The notes beneath the pieces were generated by a model. The model searched no databases, was not told the origin of the DNA, and saw only the letters and a list, made by a program, of their open reading frames with translations. From positions 62,001 through 126,000 of the forward strand of contig NZ_WBKR01000001.1 of assembly GCF_008868155.1 (NCBI RefSeq): 64,000 bases of DNA, read 5' to 3'. The translations under genes and the position numbers were made by a program. This DNA is from Micromonospora sp. ALFpr18c (GTDB taxonomy: Bacteria > Actinomycetota > Actinomycetes > Mycobacteriales > Micromonosporaceae). Of this stretch, positions 15,396-61,926 are shown piece after piece. Within the stretch, counting starts at the first letter, position 1. Each line of letters begins with the position of its first letter.

Positions 15396-16247
15396 GTGGC
15401 CAACACGATTCCCGACATCAGCCTGAACGACGGCACCACCATTCCGCAGCTCGGCTTCGGGGTGTACCAGATCGAGCCGAAGGACACCGTCGCGGCGGTG
15501 ACCACCGCGCTTGAGACGGGCTACCGGCACATCGACACCGCAGAGATGTACGGCAACGAGGCCGAGGTCGGCGAGGCGGTGCGCATGTCCGGCCTCGACC
15601 GGGCCTCGGTGTACGTGACCAGCAAGCTGAACAACGGCTTCCACCGCCCGGACGACGCGCGCAAGGCGTTCGACTCGACGCTCGCGGCGCTCAAGATGGA
15701 CTACATCGACCTGTTCCTGATCCACTGGCCGCTGCCGACGCTGTACGACGGCGACTACGTCTCGACGTGGAAGGTGCTGGAGGAGTTCCAGCGCGACGGC
15801 CGCGCCCGCTCGATCGGTGTGTCGAACTTCCAGGTGTCGCACCTGCAGCGGCTCGCCGACGAGGCGAGCGTCGTGCCGGCGGTCAACCAGATCGAGGCGC
15901 ACCCGTACTTCACCAACGACGAGGTTCGCGCGTACGGCCGCGAGCACAACATCCTGACCGAGGCGTGGTCACCCATCGCGCAGGGCAAGGTGCTGGACGA
16001 CCCGGCGGTGGTCGACATCGCCGAGCAGGTCGGCCGGACCCCGGCGCAGGTGGTGCTGCGCTGGCACGTGCAGCGCGGCGACATCATCTTCCCGAAGTCG
16101 ACCACCCCGAAGCGGATCGAGGAGAACACCCGGATCTTCGACTTCCAGCTGGACGACGCGGCGATGGAGCGGATCACCGACCTGAACAAGGGCGAGGCCG
16201 GGCGGCAGGGCCCGAACCCGGACACCTTCGCCTACGTCCCCCGCTGA
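15396..16247 (+). CDS. Aldo/keto reductase, 2,5-diketo-gluconate reductase type
   Basis: A protein of 283 residues with the full AKR tetrad: Asp and Tyr in HIDTAEMYGNE, Lys in VYVTSKLNN, His in LFLIHWPLP. The NADPH-binding end FPKSTTPKRIEENTRIFDF is present. The close match to AKR5-type enzymes suggests reduction of small ketones, aldehydes or keto-sugars with NADPH in the cytoplasm. GAAGGAG sits before the GTG-type start (GTGGCCAAC). It is intact between two decayed genes. Confidence 0.92.
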   Translation: MANTIPDISLNDGTTIPQLGFGVYQIEPKDTVAAVTTALETGYRHIDTAEMYGNEAEVGEAVRMSGLDRASVYVTSKLNNGFHRPDDARKAFDSTLAALKMDYIDLFLIHWPLPTLYDGDYVSTWKVLEEFQRDGRARSIGVSNFQVSHLQRLADEASVVPAVNQIEAHPYFTNDEVRAYGREHNILTEAWSPIAQGKVLDDPAVVDIAEQVGRTPAQVVLRWHVQRGDIIFPKSTTPKRIEENTRIFDFQLDDAAMERITDLNKGEAGRQGPNPDTFAYVPR

Positions 16248-16261
16248 CCGCTCGCTCCAAT

Positions 16262-16305
16262 GCGTGATGCCCCACAGTCATCTTGATGACTGTGGGGCAT
16301 CACGC
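16262..16305. repeat. Near-perfect palindromic repeat, copy 1
   Basis: Two 21-base arms pair perfectly around a TT loop (16283-16284). The arm reads GCGTGATGCC, then CCAC, then AGTCATC. The same outer 10 and inner 7 bases occur at 50545..50590, where the middle four bases are TGTG and the opposite arm has changed to match. It lies between convergent genes (aldo/keto reductase and an MmyB remnant), so it could also terminate transcription from both sides. Confidence 0.85.
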
Positions 16306-16333
16306 TCGTTGCGGTGCGGCTCCCCCGGACGGC

Positions 16334-16991
16334 TCAGGTGCCGACGCGCTCGGCGAGCCGACGGAACACCGCCTGGGTCGGCGAGTCGGGCGCGGGCACG
16401 TAGACGATCAGCCGCTGCTCGGTCTCCGGCACCAGCAGCACGCGGCACTCGAACTCCAGCGACCCCAGGTCGGGATGCGGCACCCGGTTGACGATGGGAC
16501 GGCGTTCCTCGACGTCGTGCTCCGCCCAGAGCCGGGCGAACCGGGGCGAGGTGCCCAGCAGCTCGGTGACCAGCTCACGAATCGCCGGATCGCCCGGGTA
16601 GCGGCCGTAGGCGGCCCGCAGGTCCGCCACCGTGCTGTGCACGAACCGGCGTGCGTCGGCATCGGTCCAGTGCGCGTCGGTCACCGGCTGGCGGAACGTC
16701 CAGCGAATCATGTTGCGGTCCGCGTCCGGCACGGCCGCGAGATCTCCCACGAAGTACGTGGCCAGACGGTTCCAGGCCAATACCTGGTACGCGGCGCGGC
16801 CCCCGGCCCTGCTCCAGCCGGATGTAGTAGTCGATCGACATCCCGGCGAGCTGGGCGACCTCCTGCCGACGCAGGCCGGGGGTGCGCCGACGTACCCCGT
16901 CGGGGAGGCCGACCTCGGCGGGGCGCAGGCGGGCGCGACGGGTACGCAGGAACGCCGCCAGCTCGTCACGCCGCAGGCCGCTGCTCGTCAT
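16334..16991 (-). pseudogene. MmyB-type XRE regulator with internal deletion
   Basis: The N-terminus from 16991 reads MTSSGLRRDELAAFLRTRRA and a normal HTH (LRRQEVAQLAGMSIDYYIRLEQGRG). After about 16805 the family sequence resumes in another frame in the middle of the ligand-binding domain (AAYQVLAWNRLATYFVGDL) and continues to the normal end (VYVPAPDSPTQAVFRRLAERVGT). About 50-60 residues that should link HTH and C-terminal domain are missing, with a frame change at the join. The product cannot be a full regulator. Confidence 0.82.
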
Positions 16992-35860: not shown

Positions 35861-36145
35861 TCAGGCCGCCTCGACGCCGGAGATCAGGTAACGGTGCACG
35901 TCGGCGTCGAGGATGGCCGCCGTCTGCGGATCGCTCGGCCCGGAGCCCCGGAACGCCGCCAACTGCTCGGCGGACTCCCAGCGTTCGTAGACGTGGATCC
36001 GCTCCGGGTCGAGCGGGTCGGCCGCGAGCAGGAAGTCCAGACAACCGGCGGTCGCCCGTGCCTGCGCGATGACCGCGTCGCACTCGGACAGGTAGTCGTC
36101 GCGCGCGCCCGGCTCGACGCGCAGACTCCCAGCAATGATCAACAC
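35861..36145 (-). CDS. Antibiotic biosynthesis monooxygenase (ABM)-domain protein
   Basis: About 94 residues: VLIIAGSLRVEPGARDDYLSECDAVIAQARATAGCLDFLLAADPLDPERIHVYERWESAEQLAAFRGSGPS is a complete ABM ferredoxin-like fold with the ERWES motif. Such dimers are cofactor-free monooxygenases or heme-degrading-like proteins; here the substrate is unknown. The GTG at 36145 gives a normal-length domain; an ATG at 36196 adds a basic leader. Confidence 0.85.
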   Translation of the reverse strand: MLIIAGSLRVEPGARDDYLSECDAVIAQARATAGCLDFLLAADPLDPERIHVYERWESAEQLAAFRGSGPSDPQTAAILDADVHRYLISGVEAA

Positions 36146-36176
36146 GGGCGCCCCTCGGGTCGGGGGACGCTGATGC

Positions 36177-36196
36177 GCGTGATGCCACAGAGTCAT
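36177..36196 (+). repeat. Half copy of the palindromic repeat
   Basis: GCGTGATGCC, ACAG, AGTCAT matches the left arm of the hairpin repeats at 16262 and 50545, with a third variant of the 4-base block. The right arm is not present. A second GAGTCATCAC follows at 36210, so the element looks rearranged or truncated. Confidence 0.6.
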
Positions 36197-36288
36197 ATTT
36201 ATACCCCTGAGTCATCACACCGATGGGGACAACGCCGCCCGGACGGGTGACGGCGTTCCCGGCGGCCTCAGCGACCTCTCGCGCTTCT

Positions 36289-36300: not shown

Positions 36301-37626
36301 GTGAGTAAAAGCGACAAACATCCCCGCGTACCCCTGAAATGGCTGACGGCGGCGGTCGCGCTCGCGGTCGTCGCGACGACCGGGCCGGCCACCGCGGACG
36401 GCCCGGGGGCCTCCGCGGAGCCGGACCACCCGAGCACACCGGGGTACGCGGCCGAGGGGCAGAGCCACGAGCCCGGCCTGGAGCCGACGCCGGAGCGGGC
36501 ACCCACCAGCGAGGTGTCCTGGCTGTCGTTCCCCGGCGGCGCATTCGCCGTGGACCCGCTCGGGCACACCGTGCGCTACCGGGCGTGCGACGGGGACACC
36601 GGCCGGGTCGCCGACCCGGACCTGCGGGTCGCCGCCGGAGTGGCCAGCGGCGAGGTGACCGTCGAGGGCCGCAGCTTCCGTTACCGGGTGCCGCTCGTCG
36701 GGCGTACGCAGGGCACGGTCGTGGTGTCCGGGCCGCAGGCACAGCCGGTGGAGCTGACCGGCGTGGTGGTCACCAGCCCGCAGCCGCCCACCGACCCGGT
36801 CGCCGGAGCCCGGCTGTTCCCGCTCAGCGGGCAGCTCGCCCGGGTCGTCGCCGACGCCAGCCTCAACCCGGCCGGTGCCACCGTCCGCGACCTGTCCGGC
36901 CGGTACGGCGACCAGCAGATCGCGGTCAACGGCGCACTGCGCCCCAAGGCCGCCAGCGTGATCAAACTGTGGATCCTGGTCGAGCTGCTCCGCCGTGTCG
37001 ACTGTGGACAGGTCTCGCTCGACGAGGGTGTGCTGGTCACACCGGCCGACGTGGTCGGCGGCACCGGCCAGCTCCAGTTCGAGACGTTTCCGCAGGTGGT
37101 GACCCTGCACCGGCTCGCGCAATACCTGATCAAGTACAGCGACAACATCGCCGCGAACGTGCTCATCACCTACCTGGGCGGATTCGCCCCGGTCAACGCG
37201 CTGATCGACTCGATGAACCAGCGGTCCACCATCCTGGCCCGGCGGATGCTCGACAGCGCGGCCGCCCAGCGCGGCGAGGAGAACTACACCAGCCCGGACG
37301 ACGTGGTGTCCCTGCTCGGCGCGGTCTGGGACGGCGAGATCCTCACTCCCGCCTCCCGCGACCTGATGATCGGCTTCATGCGCGAGCAGACCCTGAACAC
37401 CAAAATTCCGGCGGCACTGCCACCCGGGGTGCCGGTCGCGCACAAGACCGGCGACCTGCCCGACGCCTCCCACGACGTCGGCTACTACCTGATCCCCGGC
37501 ACCGAGACCGCCGTCGCGTTCCTCACTGCCGGGCCGATGGCCACCGGCGACGAAACCGTCCGCCGGATGGCCCGCACCGTCTACGACTTCCTGGTCACCC
37601 CCGCCGACGGCGCGGTCGAAGAGTGA
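36301..37626 (+). CDS. Secreted serine hydrolase, class A beta-lactamase-like
   Basis: About 441 residues with signal peptide (KWLTAAVALAVVATTGPATA/D). The C-terminal about 270 residues carry SxxK (ASVIKLWILVELL), SDN (KYSDNIAANVLI) and KTG (VAHKTGDLPDASHDVGYY). The N-terminal about 160 residues include a beta-rich part (TVRYRACDGDTGRVADPDLRVAAG...FRYRVPLVGRTQGTVVVSG) not found in classical beta-lactamases. The Glu166 region is not clear, so it may be a penicillin-binding or esterase-like enzyme rather than a resistance factor. It starts leaderless. Confidence 0.82.
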   Translation: MSKSDKHPRVPLKWLTAAVALAVVATTGPATADGPGASAEPDHPSTPGYAAEGQSHEPGLEPTPERAPTSEVSWLSFPGGAFAVDPLGHTVRYRACDGDTGRVADPDLRVAAGVASGEVTVEGRSFRYRVPLVGRTQGTVVVSGPQAQPVELTGVVVTSPQPPTDPVAGARLFPLSGQLARVVADASLNPAGATVRDLSGRYGDQQIAVNGALRPKAASVIKLWILVELLRRVDCGQVSLDEGVLVTPADVVGGTGQLQFETFPQVVTLHRLAQYLIKYSDNIAANVLITYLGGFAPVNALIDSMNQRSTILARRMLDSAAAQRGEENYTSPDDVVSLLGAVWDGEILTPASRDLMIGFMREQTLNTKIPAALPPGVPVAHKTGDLPDASHDVGYYLIPGTETAVAFLTAGPMATGDETVRRMARTVYDFLVTPADGAVEE

Positions 37627-42137: not shown

Positions 42138-43001
42138 TCAGCTGGCCGGCTCCAGGCCCGGCACCTCCTCAGCGATCCAGATCGGCTGCCAGGCCACCAT
42201 CTCGTGGTAGCGGCGCAGCTCGAACAGCCCGGCGACCGACCCGCTCCAGGCCGCGTACGGCGGGTTGGCCTCGTCGAAGCCGCTCTGCACGAAGGTCAGC
42301 GTGGTCTTGCCACCGGACTCGGCCAGCTCCCACGTGCTGACGCCGGTGGGTCCCCAGTCGACGGACATCTTCCGACCCGGCTCCAGGTCGACGATCTTGG
42401 CCGCGTACCCGGCCTCGAAGCCGCCCATGGCGTACCGGCCGCCGACCCACGGCTCGATGCCGATCGGGTAGCCGAACCAGGCGCTGGCCTGCTCGGAGTC
42501 GGTCAGCGACTCCCAGACCTTGTCGGCGGGGGCGGCGATGACCAGCTCGCCGCGCAGGTCGGCGGAGGTGAAGTCGGTGCGGGGCAGCAGCGGCTGGCCC
42601 TCCAGGTGGGCGGCCAGGTTGGCGATGGACAGCGCCCAGTACGTCTGGAGCACACCCCGGATGCTGGAGCCGCTCATCGCCTCGGCGAAGTCGAAGTGGC
42701 TCTGGGTCAGCGTCAGCACGGTGGCGTCCGGGCCGTCGGCGGTGAGCTGGAACTCGGTGGTGGTCTCCACGCCGTCGAGCAGCCAGCCGAAGCGCAGCGT
42801 GTCGTCGTCAGCGTGCAGCAGCCGCTGGTGCGGGGCGTCGCCCTCGGGCGTGTAGCGGCCCCAGAACTCGTACCGCTGCGGCAGCTCGACCTCGGCGTGC
42901 TCGGCCAGCCAGAGTCGCAGCGCGGCGGGGTCGGTCAGGGCCTCGCGGACGCGTCCCACCGACGCGGAGAGGCGGGCCTGCACCTTCAACGGTTCACTCA
43001 T
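42138..43001 (-). CDS. Tandem SRPBCC (AHSA1-type) domain protein
   Basis: About 287 residues with two START/AHSA1-like domains. The first is VQARLSASVGRVREALTDPAALRLWLAEHAEVEL...TQSHFDF (residues 4-125). The second is GELVIAAPADKVWESLTDSEQASAWFGYPIGIEP...TLTFVQSGFDEANPPYAAW (about 155-270). The domain binds hydrophobic ligands. Its ATG overlaps the stop of the upstream ArsR-type regulator by 8 bases, so the two are cotranslated. That layout is typical of ArsR-SRPBCC pairs. Confidence 0.88.
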   Translation of the reverse strand: MSEPLKVQARLSASVGRVREALTDPAALRLWLAEHAEVELPQRYEFWGRYTPEGDAPHQRLLHADDDTLRFGWLLDGVETTTEFQLTADGPDATVLTLTQSHFDFAEAMSGSSIRGVLQTYWALSIANLAAHLEGQPLLPRTDFTSADLRGELVIAAPADKVWESLTDSEQASAWFGYPIGIEPWVGGRYAMGGFEAGYAAKIVDLEPGRKMSVDWGPTGVSTWELAESGGKTTLTFVQSGFDEANPPYAAWSGSVAGLFELRRYHEMVAWQPIWIAEEVPGLEPAS

Positions 43002-43551
43002 GTTCGGTCCCTTTCGGATAGCAGGCCACGGCCAGCTTGAAGGCATCTCCTTCGCTGCCGCCGTAGCGGGTGAACAGATCCTGTAGTGCGGTCTGCAGGT
43101 CGTGCAGGAACTGCTGGCGCTGCTCCGCGGGCACCCGGATCTCGCCGGCCACCCCGATCGAGGGCAGCTCGGGCGCCGCCCGGTCCAGGGCGGCGATGTC
43201 GGCCTGGACCTCCTCCATCAGGTCGAGCAGGTAGCCCAGGCTCAGCTCGTCACGGGCGCGGCGCAGCCCGATCCGGCCGACCAGCCGCGGCGAGAGCCAG
43301 TACGACCGGGCGGCCGCCTGGTAGATGCCCTCGGTGATCCCGCGGACCTTGCGCTCGTTGACCAGCTCGACCAGGCCGGCCGCGACGAGCTGCTTGACGT
43401 GGTAGTAGACGCGCTGCGGCGTCTGGTCGAGTCGGGCCGCGACCTCGGTGCAGGTGCGCGGTTCGGCCAGTTGCCGCAGCACCTCGACGCGCTGCGGCTT
43501 GAGCAGGACTTCGGCCTGCTCGATCTGCTCCAGGTACAGGACATCTCTCAT
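42994..43551 (-). CDS. ArsR-type winged-helix regulator
   Basis: About 185 residues: winged HTH AEVLLKPQRVEVLRQLAEPRTCTEVAARLDQTPQRVYYHVKQLVAAGLVELVNERKVRGITEGIYQAAA. The C-terminal helical part (LGYLLDLMEEVQADIAALDRA...RQQFLHDLQTALQDLFTRYG) probably dimerises or binds ligand. There is no metal-binding Cys pair, so it is not a metal sensor. The ATG at 43551 is chosen over an upstream TTG. A 14-bp palindrome inside its own promoter implies autorepression. Confidence 0.87.
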   Translation of the reverse strand: MRDVLYLEQIEQAEVLLKPQRVEVLRQLAEPRTCTEVAARLDQTPQRVYYHVKQLVAAGLVELVNERKVRGITEGIYQAAARSYWLSPRLVGRIGLRRARDELSLGYLLDLMEEVQADIAALDRAAPELPSIGVAGEIRVPAEQRQQFLHDLQTALQDLFTRYGGSEGDAFKLAVACYPKGTEHE

Positions 43552-43560
43552 GGCAAAATA

Positions 43561-43589
43561 AGTTTGTACGTACAAAACTTGTTTGTCAA
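43561..43589 (-). promoter_or_regulatory. Promoter with overlapping palindromic operator of the ArsR-SRPBCC operon
   Basis: On the minus strand TTGACA (43584-43589), 17-base spacer, CAAACT (43561-43566). The perfect palindrome TTTGTACGTACAAA (43563-43576) covers the -10 end of the spacer, where a bound dimer would block polymerase. Confidence 0.65.
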
Positions 43590-49375: not shown

Positions 49376-49433
49376 GCGACAAGTCTGGGCGGCACCGAGG
49401 ACGGCGGCGAGTGGCCGGAAAGCCATCATGCGC

Positions 49434-49439
49434 AATAAT
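49434..49439 (+). promoter_or_regulatory. -10 box of a leaderless promoter
   Basis: AATAAT ends 6 bases before the ATG at 49446, in an unusually AT-rich spot for this genome. Confidence 0.5.
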
Positions 49440-49445
49440 CGGGCC

Positions 49446-50435
49446 ATGAGCGTACGCCCGCACCGGATCGCCGTCCTCGCCCTCGACCACGTCGTCGGCC
49501 TGGACCTGGGCACTCCGTCCCAGGTCTTCAGCACCGCCCGGGGCACCGACGGGGCACCCTTCTACGACGTGCGGGTGTGCACCCCGGGCGGGCAGCCGGT
49601 CCGCAGCACCGCCGGCTTTCAGGTGGTCCCCGACCACGGTCTGGAGCTGCTCGAGACCGCCGACACGGTGATCGTGCCGGGCATCCACGCCGGCAGCGCG
49701 TTGACCTCGGGCATCGTCGAGCCGGAGGTGGCCGAGGCGCTGCGCGCGGCGTACGAGCGGGGCGCCCGAATCATGTCGATCTGCACCGGTGCGTTCGTGC
49801 TGGCCGCCGCGGGCCTGCTCGACGGGCGTCGGGCGACCACCCACTGGGCGTACGCCGAGCAGTTCCGCCGCCTGCACCAGCGGGTGGACCTCGACCCGGG
49901 AGTGCTCTTCATCGTCGACGACCGGGTGCTCACCTCGGCCGGAGTGGCCGCCGGCATCGACCTCTGCCTGCACGTCATCCGCCTCGACCACGGCAGTGAG
50001 GTGGCCAACCGGGCGGCCCGCCGCTGCGTGATGCCGCCGTGGCGCGACGGCGGGCAGGCGCAGTACATCGAACAGCCGGTGCCGAAGGTCAGCGACGCCA
50101 GCACCGCGACCGCCCGCGAATGGGCCCGGCAGCGGCTGCACGAGCCGATCGCCCTGCGCGACCTGGCCGAGCAGGCCCGGATGAGCGTGCGCACCCTCAC
50201 CCGGCGGTTCCGGTCGGAGACCGGGCTGAGCCCGGCACAGTGGCTGCTGCAACAGCGCACGGACCACGCGCGGCTGCTGCTGGAGACGACGGACCTCACC
50301 GTGGACCAGATCGCCCACCGCAGCGGCTTCGGCACCACGGCCGCCCTGCGCCAACAACTCCACCAGCGCATCGGCGTGGCGCCCTCGACCTACCGCCGCA
50401 CCTTCCACCCCCGCGCCGAGCTGATCAACGGCTGA
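49446..50435 (+). CDS. GlxA-family AraC-type regulator (DJ-1/PfpI domain plus HTH)
   Basis: A protein of 329 residues. The N-terminal DJ-1/PfpI domain (HRIAVLALDHVVGLDLGTPSQVF...GARIMSICTGAFVLAAAGLLDGRRATTHWAYAEQF) has a Cys in SICTGA at the nucleophile elbow. The C-terminal AraC HTH pair is ALRDLAEQARMSVRTLTRRFRSETGLSPAQWLLQQR and TVDQIAHRSGFGTTAALRQQLHQRIGVAPSTYRR. Divergent from the MFS gene, its likely target. Confidence 0.92.
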   Translation: MSVRPHRIAVLALDHVVGLDLGTPSQVFSTARGTDGAPFYDVRVCTPGGQPVRSTAGFQVVPDHGLELLETADTVIVPGIHAGSALTSGIVEPEVAEALRAAYERGARIMSICTGAFVLAAAGLLDGRRATTHWAYAEQFRRLHQRVDLDPGVLFIVDDRVLTSAGVAAGIDLCLHVIRLDHGSEVANRAARRCVMPPWRDGGQAQYIEQPVPKVSDASTATAREWARQRLHEPIALRDLAEQARMSVRTLTRRFRSETGLSPAQWLLQQRTDHARLLLETTDLTVDQIAHRSGFGTTAALRQQLHQRIGVAPSTYRRTFHPRAELING

Positions 50436-50484: not shown

Positions 50485-50544
50485 CCGTGCACATGCTGTC
50501 GCCCGGTTGCCGGGCTTCTCCGGTCGGGGGGCAGTACTACTTCG

Positions 50545-50590
50545 AGCGTGATGCCTGTGAGTCATCTTGATGACTCACAGGCATCACGCT
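50545..50590. repeat. Near-perfect palindromic repeat, copy 2
   Basis: Two 22-base arms pair perfectly around a TT loop (50567-50568). The arm is A, GCGTGATGCC, TGTG, AGTCATC. Outer and inner blocks equal those at 16262; the middle four bases differ and the opposite arm has changed with them. It lies between convergent genes, as copy 1 does. Confidence 0.85.
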
Positions 50591-50642
50591 CAATAGACCA
50601 GGACGGCCCCACCCTGACCGGCCGGCGCACGACCGCCGCTGC

Positions 50643-51107
50643 TCAGGCCCGGAGCAGGTGTAGTTGGGACTGGTGTTTGGGGAGGTGGACCCGGGCGTGC
50701 AGGTCGAGGGTGCGGGACCAGGGCAGCGGCTCGTCGACGACGAGGTCGAAGCCCTCGCGTAGATGCGTCTCGACCGGGGTTTCCACGGCCAGGCCGAGCC
50801 GGTCGACCAGGGCGCACAGGCGGTCGCTGGTGCCGTGCAGCAGCGCCGTCACGCCGCGTAGACCGCCCTGCTCGGCGACCAGCGCGTCGAGCTGCGGCCG
50901 GTGCACGTCCTCCTCCAGCTCGTAGTAGGCGAACGGCGACCCGGCCAGCAACGCCTCGGTGGCCTGGATCATCAGCTCGTCGTTGGCCACCAGATGCGCG
51001 ACGATCTGCTCGGCGCTGAGCTGCCCCTCCGGCGCCGCCCCGAACGAACCCGCGTCAATCTCCGCGAACACCGCGCCGTAGGCCCGCCGCAAACCCCCGC
51101 TCTCCAT
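50643..51107 (-). CDS. DinB/maleylpyruvate-isomerase-like four-helix protein
   Basis: A protein of 154 residues: LRRAYGAVFAEIDAGSF, LSAEQIVAHLVANDELMIQATEALLAG and a C-terminal LHARVHLPKHQSQLHLLRA follow the DinB-like four-helix pattern with His residues (IVAHLV, LHARVHLPKHQSQL) placed as metal ligands. Mycothiol-dependent enzymes use this fold, but the substrate is unknown. Confidence 0.7.
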   Translation of the reverse strand: MESGGLRRAYGAVFAEIDAGSFGAAPEGQLSAEQIVAHLVANDELMIQATEALLAGSPFAYYELEEDVHRPQLDALVAEQGGLRGVTALLHGTSDRLCALVDRLGLAVETPVETHLREGFDLVVDEPLPWSRTLDLHARVHLPKHQSQLHLLRA

Positions 51108-61801: not shown

Positions 61802-61837
61802 CAGCGGCCCGGTTGATGATCATCAACCGGGCCGCTG
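61802..61837. terminator. Hairpin between the endoglucanase and tRNA-Ala
   Basis: A perfect 17-bp stem (CAGCGGCCCGGTTGATG at 61802-61818, complement at 61821-61837) with an AT loop. It can stop transcription from both the endoglucanase (+) and the tRNA gene (-). Confidence 0.7.
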
Positions 61838-61853: not shown

Positions 61854-61926
61854 TGGAGCCGAGGGGACTCGAACCCCTGACCCCCACACTGCCAGTGTGG
61901 TGCGCTACCAGCTGCGCCACGGCCCC
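61854..61926 (-). tRNA. tRNA-Ala (anticodon GGC)
   Basis: A sequence of 73 bases folding as a cloverleaf: acceptor GGGGCCG/CGGCTCC, D-loop GCAGCTGGTAGCGC, anticodon stem CCACA/TGTGG with loop CTGGCAG, T-loop GGGGTTCGAGTCCCC, discriminator A. The CCA end is not encoded. It reads GCC (and GCU) alanine codons. Confidence 0.95.

Follow-up and report, generated by a model that had tools for sequence, protein, structure and literature searches.

This locus raises the question of what kind of element forms long, perfect hairpins between facing genes in Micromonospora sp. ALFpr18c. In the window, which is the whole stretch of 64,000 nucleotides analysed here, a preliminary description had placed two such hairpins and proposed a terminator family, a RAYT-like REP element or a nucleoid-protein site. 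Both hairpins were found where they had been placed, and both lie between convergent genes as described (Table 1). The arms of copy 1 (16262-16282 and 16285-16305, 21 nt each) and of copy 2 (50544-50566 and 50569-50591, 23 nt each) were 100% complementary, with 2 nt between them. The four-base blocks by which the copies differ also paired as stated, CCAC with GTGG in copy 1 and TGTG with CACA in copy 2. The stop codons that flank copy 1 are 12 nt away on its left and 26 nt away on its right. Folded as RNA, the two strands of copies 1 and 2 gave -41.1 to -45.3 kcal/mol (z -9.4 to -12.4), and 0 of 200 shuffles folded equally well. Moreover, the arm motif with up to 3 mismatches matched the window five times against 0.18 expected, a number reached by 0 of 100 shuffles.

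Table 1. Elements of the hairpin family in the window and the genes on both sides of them.
Feature	Position	Strand	Remarks
Copy 1, two-unit palindrome	16260..16307		Hairpin of ~20 bp, CTTG loop
Copy 2, two-unit palindrome	50544..50591		22-bp hairpin, identical to the 48-bp family consensus
Copy 3, two-unit element	36175..36222		Units more alike directly than inverted; weak hairpin
Aldo/keto reductase gene	15396..16247	+	PF00248; 3' end faces copy 1
MmyB-like regulator ligand-binding domain gene	16334..16780	-	PF17765; convergent at copy 1; start approximate
DJ-1/PfpI-AraC type regulator gene	49428..50435	+	PF01965, PF12833; 3' end faces copy 2
Convergent partner gene at copy 2	50643..51107	-	No Pfam match; start approximate
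Antibiotic biosynthesis monooxygenase (ABM) domain gene	35861..36145	-	PF03992; divergent at copy 3
Beta-lactamase-family enzyme gene	36301..37626	+	PF13354; divergent at copy 3

Two full copies had been counted previously, while the window holds three. The third had 0 mismatches to the whole-element pattern GTGATRMC-N5-GKYAT-N4-ATRMC-N5-GKYATCAC, which gave three copies at 0 mismatches and no further match in the window up to 6 mismatches. With a family matrix built from 196 distinct copies, the scores were 84 and 60 for copies 1 and 2 and 55 for copy 3; the next-best score, -21, came from an offset of copy 1, and shuffled windows reached -10. Copy 3 sits between divergent genes, its arms are mismatched, and it folds poorly (-8.7 and -18.6 kcal/mol on the two strands). 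An element was present at its position (group 2) in 6 of the 7 genomes compared. The genes were called by a purpose-written codon-score script, whose starts and short genes are uncertain. When the window was scanned with Rfam, one tRNA alone passed the gathering cut-off and no family was found at the hairpins; the best bacterial sub-threshold match at copy 2 was Ms_IGR-8 (22.4 of 44 bits). The near matches were mostly microRNA families, which are expected of any long perfect stem. A simple terminator scan around copy 1 gave no match.

The hairpins are members of a genome-wide family. The draft genome of the strain (6.7 Mb, 581 contigs) contained 29 copies, which disposes of the possibility, raised in the preliminary description, that the copies in the window are the only ones. 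Most counts for this genome use 28 of the 29; the copy left out (C199, at L038) is a distinct copy between convergent genes, identical to C46 over 56 bp. The exact search pattern proposed at first matched 9 of the 28 copies, with the N4 blocks fully paired in 7 of the 9 and carrying one mismatch in 2; N4 blocks that do not pair, which had been named as evidence against the idea, do occur in a minority of copies. At least one copy was found in 45 of 101 genomes of the genus, with a range of 0 to 29 per genome, and a reversed control pattern gave 0 matches in all 101. Copy-rich Micromonospora genomes carry some 20 to 30 copies each, and the counts for G004, G034 and G056 come from a stricter search pattern. 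In a sample of 200 genomes of the taxonomic family, own genus included, 35 matched, from 7 of 44 genera. Among the 80 loci listed of 103 in a collection of named genomes, 78 were from Micromonospora and 2 from Plantactinospora. In a class-wide sample (246 genomes, up to 2 mismatches) no convincing match was obtained outside the genus: the 3 matching genomes were that of the strain, one congener, and an incomplete small genome with a single 2-mismatch match that looks like chance. A search of the open-access literature, with subscription papers outside its reach, returned no description of the hairpin family.

The element consists of two 15-bp units, ATRMC-N5-GKYAT, which are 19 bp apart and usually inverted, and its 48-bp consensus core reads GAGCGTG ATGCC TGTGA GTCAT CTTG ATGAC TCACA GGCAT CACGCTC. 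Seven positions (G7, A8, T9, C12, G18, A21 and T22) and their mirror positions were invariant in 70 copies from three genomes, an invariance that is partly imposed or inflated by the search pattern. The central triplet of each unit, which the pattern leaves free, was nearly always S-W-S, with G/C or A/T swapping strands. The central dinucleotide of the element was self-complementary in 5 of 133 copies, against about 51 expected from shuffling. Beyond the core there was weak signal, e.g., G at -17 and -18 and C at -7. With up to 1 mismatch, 48 single-unit matches were obtained in the own genome, and on inspection all fell in two-unit copies; no single units outside two-unit copies were seen in the own loci examined. 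In 23 of 156 copies the units were more alike directly than inverted. These direct-type copies made up 10 of 20 divergent and 6 of 68 convergent copies, or 3 of 8 and 2 of 26 when counted by position.

The half-sites of the units follow rules of their own. In 240 of 312 units one half-site was ATGAC and its partner was ATGCC, ATGTC or ATACC. Within a copy the outer half-sites mostly agreed (59 ATGCC, 22 ATGTC and 17 ATACC pairs against 4 mixed), and 23 further copies paired one of these three with ATGAC; inner boxes were mismatched more often than outer ones. Between orthologous copies the outer half-sites shifted one way, ATGCC in G000 standing against ATGTC in G024 (16:0), G002 (14:0), G030 (8:0) and G034 (6:0) and against ATACC in G004 (9:0), counted as two half-sites per copy in relatives that share some of them by descent. 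The preliminary description had held that pairing rather than sequence is under selection, which is not supported, as the invariant columns and the S-W-S triplet indicate that sequence is kept too. This constraint, together with the half-site shifts and the lack of a G-U bias described below, makes a candidate factor acting on DNA plausible. The conserved sequence and the lineage-wide shifts would then reflect recognition by that factor, or some other homogenising process. Separately, G245 carries a divergent dialect with symmetric units (ATGCCGCTGTGGCAT CTAG ATGCCACAGCGGCAT) and ATTCC half-sites; its centre is self-complementary, of the kind mostly avoided in other copies.

Pairing between the two units is maintained across the family, in agreement with the earlier claim. 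In 67 distinct copies from three genomes (G000, G004 and G024), the long hairpin had 87.6% standard pairs compared to 80.8% after shuffling, double-sided changes at 15 of 22 pairs compared to 10.7, and 102 double-changed cells compared to 42. Slid controls of the hairpin reached at most 46% standard pairs, 8 pairs and 27 cells (17-27). The covariation score was 0.208, against 0.105 for shuffles and at most 0.085 for slid controls. A fold into two small hairpins, each unit on itself, was rejected: all 500 shuffles paired better, since a unit typically combines one ATGAC half with a partner of another sequence. Not every copy pairs fully in the long hairpin. The 18-bp inner stem was perfect in 9 of 28 own copies, and in 5/25, 0/19, 10/23, 5/24, 3/19 and 4/18 copies of G002, G004, G024, G030, G034 and G056, respectively. 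At orthologous positions, 3230 of 4158 cells were unchanged, 656 had changed on one side, 179 were compensated, and 93 had changed on both sides without being Watson-Crick in both copies. Both sides had changed in 6.5% of cells compared to 2.1% if the sides were independent, in comparisons that are not independent of each other and whose rates differ between columns. Among co-directional copies read along transcription there was no RNA wobble bias (26 G-U and 29 A-C, p = 0.79).

Placement relative to genes was also biased. The 133 copies comprised 60 in convergent, 48 in co-directional and 16 in divergent gaps, 4 in called genes and 5 without a called gene on one side; 1 of the 28 placed own copies lies in a called gene. 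The 119 background gaps, which are few and were taken from the same flanks as the copies, were 29 convergent, 66 co-directional and 24 divergent. Thus 60 of 124 placed copies compared to 29 of 119 background gaps were convergent (odds ratio 2.9, p = 1e-4 in a Fisher test that left out the 4 in-gene copies and the 5 with no gene on one side). The convergent placement noticed earlier is therefore real as a bias, but confinement to convergent gaps is not. The median distance to the stop codon was 68.5 nt in convergent and 80 nt in co-directional gaps, with 164.5 nt to the next start in the latter. Most copies, though not copy 3, form a stable hairpin shortly past a stop codon. Moreover, pairing varied with orientation (Kruskal p = 0.024): by position, 16.52 of 18 pairs were formed in convergent (26), 15.87 in co-directional (32) and 14.44 in divergent (8) gaps, with p = 0.015 for convergent against divergent and p = 0.12 against co-directional. 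This dependence is a modest argument that pairing is selected and not only made by mutation. A U-tract (at least 3 T in the 8 nt past the stem) was present at 11.8% of 406 strand ends and in 8.8% of 1210 background windows, so that the family lacks this trait of a canonical intrinsic terminator.

Many elements were stable at orthologous positions. From seven genomes, 121 of 156 copies fall at 34 positions common to at least two genomes, the set of 156 leaving out one copy each of G002 and G024, two of G004, and L038. Of the 28 own copies, 19 have a counterpart at the orthologous place in one or more of six relatives, a comparison that uses positions where both copies match the family pattern and so overstates conservation. 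The ungapped identity between orthologues, per 4-nt step, was 0.73 to 0.91 in the core, where the search pattern inflates it, about 0.5 to 0.65 over the next 20 nt and about 0.35 beyond. This profile was used instead of a flank alignment with free end gaps, which gave 0.796 against 0.779 for shuffled flanks. At the position of copy 2, relatives carry ATGTC/GACAT or ATACC/GGTAT against ATGCC/GGCAT in the own copy. At that of copy 1, family hairpins were found in G002, G024, G028 and G030, while G034 has lost the family motif and kept a long stem. Within 90 nt past the stop codon there, 4 of 29 relatives had a family match and 25 had none. Among these 25, 20 folded at least 2 sd better than mononucleotide shuffles; the gene thus usually ends in some sort of hairpin.

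Gain, loss and copying were observed as well. At two positions without grouped orthologues the element was nearly absent from relatives. The own copy at L014 was common to 1 of 18 relatives searched (G039), taking the best-matching place in each; in several the flanks have no more than 74-77% identity, and these places may be paralogues. In many of the other relatives the two flanking genes overlap or directly adjoin each other. At L027 the element was absent from 20 relative loci, of which 5 span the gap and the rest reach one flank. The genes at L014 and L027 can therefore do without it. Comparison with the empty sites at both loci revealed no clean 48-bp footprint and no target duplication, and the own sequence without counterpart was about 140-290 nt. 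L011:1444-1545 (C46) and L038:1028-1129 (C199) have 102 bp in common at 97% identity, extending about 35 and 27 bp beyond a 40-bp core into surroundings that are otherwise unlike, and no target duplication was seen at this pair. Judged by its sequence, the pair is a recent copying event with a unit larger than the hairpin, and L011 is probably the source because its position (group 6) is common to four relatives. Three own places that are not orthologous also carry identical 48-mers, and a fourth has the same sequence inverted. In G002 (C1:4094543 and 4436070; L369 and L371), the position of copy 2 is duplicated together with its flanks (416 bp at 95%), and the two 48-bp elements are identical; here a segmental duplication carried the element along.

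We tentatively favour, at somewhat less than even confidence, the explanation that the family is a REP-like palindrome serving as a U-poor 3'-end hairpin for transcription in both directions; a terminator family is then the best of the three options first proposed. Since the two units usually stand head to head, either DNA strand, or its RNA, could form a ~20-bp stem closed by a loop of 4 nt. As the polymerase leaves either gene, the transcript would fold, and the polymerase would stop and/or 3' exonucleases would be blocked. In this way an element at a gene end would form 3' ends in both directions and terminate transcription or define RNA ends without relying on a strong U-tract, like the U-poor terminators of other high-GC actinobacteria. 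The convergent bias and the orientation-dependent pairing, lowest in divergent places, fit a hairpin that matters at gene ends. The stable folds of copies 1 and 2 on both strands, the covariation far above controls, the many orthologous positions with their compensated changes, and the strong folds of most motif-free relatives at copy 1 are consistent with this. The stop distances are close to the medians of Streptomyces transcript ends, which lie 66-76 nt past the coding sequence in the accessible text of PMC12207403. Other features fit less well. There is no U-tract and no RNA wobble signature, and the invariance of many columns goes beyond what a terminator, which can do without a fixed sequence, requires. 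Divergent gaps hold 16 of 133 copies, direct-type copies exist, the elements of L014 and L027 are missing from almost all relatives examined, and copying also happens.

The absence of a U-tract is usual in Streptomyces according to the accessible parts of PMC12207403 and PMC8269248, and U-poor ends are common among the structured ends of S. clavuligerus (353 of 535 in the accessible part of PMC8269248). Such U-poor terminators, called 'I-shaped' or HS-U-lack, have a strong stem, a short loop and a weak or no U-tract (same parts of PMC8269248 and PMC12207403), as does the family; copies 1 and 2, at -41 to -45 kcal/mol with few T, have the very stable, U-poor stem of this type. U-poor terminators are defined by RNA ends, whereas this family is known from sequence, by an exact grammar across unlinked genes and species. 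To our knowledge, no shared sequence grammar has been described for U-poor actinobacterial terminators. Bidirectional terminators between convergent genes likewise fold on both strands between facing genes, but the family has no T-rich tail. A-tracts, which are described for bidirectional terminators, hardly occur in Streptomyces either, according to the accessible text of PMC12207403.

The foremost alternative, which we regard as rather unlikely, is a double-stranded DNA site for a putative sequence-specific protein, with the hairpin as a by-product of the inverted unit order. Two dimers or a tetramer could occupy the four half-sites (ATGAC and its variable partner) side by side, and once in place the protein could obstruct polymerases in the gaps between genes or help to shape the chromosome. 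Such a site would explain why ATGAC is combined with one of three partners in most units, why units come in pairs, and why pairing within units falls below all shuffles, indicating that asymmetry is favoured; the strand swaps within S-W-S triplets are what a minor-groove or shape reader would allow. The unit grammar also outlasts the hairpin, in direct-type copies and at position group 2, and the outer half-sites differ between lineages in one direction, with no G-U bias. The agreement between the outer half-sites of most copies, in contrast, would not be required by independent protein contacts, and pairing varies with gene orientation. In addition, no candidate protein was found, and the search pattern fixes the grammar and inflates its apparent constancy. 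The grammar conserved at unrelated sites, the half-site shifts and the lack of G-U bias point to a DNA-level binding protein or to arm-to-arm mutational copying, and both may act.

A combined explanation is less probable than the DNA site taken by itself. A putative Micromonospora protein would occupy two adjacent asymmetric 15-bp sites downstream of genes and, jointly with the hairpin, end or insulate transcription on both sides, and the half-site dialects (ATGCC, ATGTC, ATACC and ATTCC) would record its coevolution with about 25 sites per genome, forming a dispersed gene-end regulon.

Equally improbable is a REP- or MITE-like mobile palindrome without function in place, whose symmetry is preserved by hairpin-templated mutation, in which one arm is copied onto the other, and by lineage-specific spread. 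The copying event between L011 and L038 led us to raise the weight of this explanation and to lower those of the gene-end hairpin and of a parS-type site. The identical 48-mers at non-orthologous places, the range of 0 to 29 copies between congeners and the two own copies without an orthologous element in almost all relatives examined suit spread, and the scarcity of mixed intermediates suits arm-to-arm copying. However, most own copies are kept in position in at least one of the six relatives, orthologues differ by substitutions, and pairing depends on gene orientation. Neither a clean 48-bp insertion nor a target duplication was found at L014 and L027, and no target duplication was seen at L011/L038.

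REP elements are, like the family, short repeated intergenic palindromes for which roles in termination or mRNA stability have been proposed, and those of the GTAG and CGTC super-families are mostly located downstream of genes, between convergent and co-directional ones (Di Nocera, 2013; accessible text of PMC3733652). The words Micromonospora, Streptomyces and actinobacteria are absent from the main text of that paper. The family agrees with REPs in being a repeated short intergenic palindrome. The unpaired GTAG/CGTC tag at the foot of REPs was not seen in the family profiles outside the 48-bp core, which pool both orientations so that a rare tag could be missed; the GAGCG..CGCTC at the foot of the stem is paired and symmetric. 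Unlike REPs, the family has two units at a fixed pitch, and many of its positions are fixed across species. G-U pairs are not favoured in it, whereas frequent GT pairing is cited for REPs in the accessible text of PMC3733652. The RAYT-like option of the preliminary description was rejected, as the draft genome has no match to the Y1 transposase (PF01797). This domain was present in 28 of 101 genus genomes and, among the 17 with at least 10 copies, in G002 and G038 only; no positive link with copy number was found across the 101. A gene acting in trans was also sought between two G034 copies 1.8 kb apart, where by eye there were an alpha/beta-hydrolase-like gene and an uncertain call, nothing transposase-like. 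Although it resembles REPs and would behave as a gene-end hairpin, the family thus lacks two of the traits by which REPs are defined, namely the foot tag and an accompanying RAYT gene.

A chromosome-organising site of the parS, matS or Noc type is very improbable. Copy-rich genomes do have about 20-30 palindromic copies, many at conserved positions, but the 26 copies of the closed genome G002 are unclustered by distance from dnaA (Kolmogorov-Smirnov p = 0.13), and 56 of 101 genus genomes have no copies by the pattern used. Comparison by eye revealed no bias of loop polarity relative to the replication strand in G002. Least credible of all is a folded single-strand recombination site resembling integron attC, in which outer and inner boxes, 5-nt spacers and a short loop follow in the order box-spacer-box-loop-box-spacer-box: the family shares this order, the four quasi-palindromic boxes foldable as a single strand and the more frequent mismatches of inner boxes, but its box sequences differ, the consensus lacking the RYYYAAC/GTTRRRY boxes of attC; an integron integrase scored over the model cut-off in 0 of 7 genomes, with sub-threshold matches also in all 14 control genomes; and no exchange was seen, since matching DNA is retained on either side in most of the orthologous pairs listed.

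How high-GC actinobacteria end transcripts without U-tracts is unsettled. In several species the family supplies some 20 to 30 natural replicates in each copy-rich genome, many of which occupy conserved positions, and at matched positions relatives have other hairpins or none at all. Two constraints act on the palindrome, one on pairing and one on the unit grammar, and at some positions they come apart: at group 2 the units persist although pairing is poor, while G034 at copy 1 has retained a stem but not the motif. The roles of structure and sequence are therefore directly testable. A protein that reads the element would represent a novel type of gene-end factor; should there be none, the family would be a clear example of how a REP-like repeat has been co-opted to form hairpins at gene ends.

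Other inverted repeats were noticed during the analysis. A second intergenic one, with arms like GATCTTGCACTT .. AAGTGCAAGATC, occurs in Micromonospora relatives at L155, L156, L160, L170 and ten other loci (14 of 445 examined), sometimes in the same gap as the hairpin family; it was absent from the window and from the own-genome loci examined. In the window, a perfect 18-bp inverted repeat with no loop (61802-61837) lies 16 nt past the 3' end of a minus-strand tRNA gene (61854-61926) and is probably its terminator, though it has no T run. Furthermore, an imperfect inverted repeat at 43551-43588, AT-rich in a manner unusual for this high-GC window, stands immediately upstream of the start of a called minus-strand gene (42994-43551) and might be an operator.
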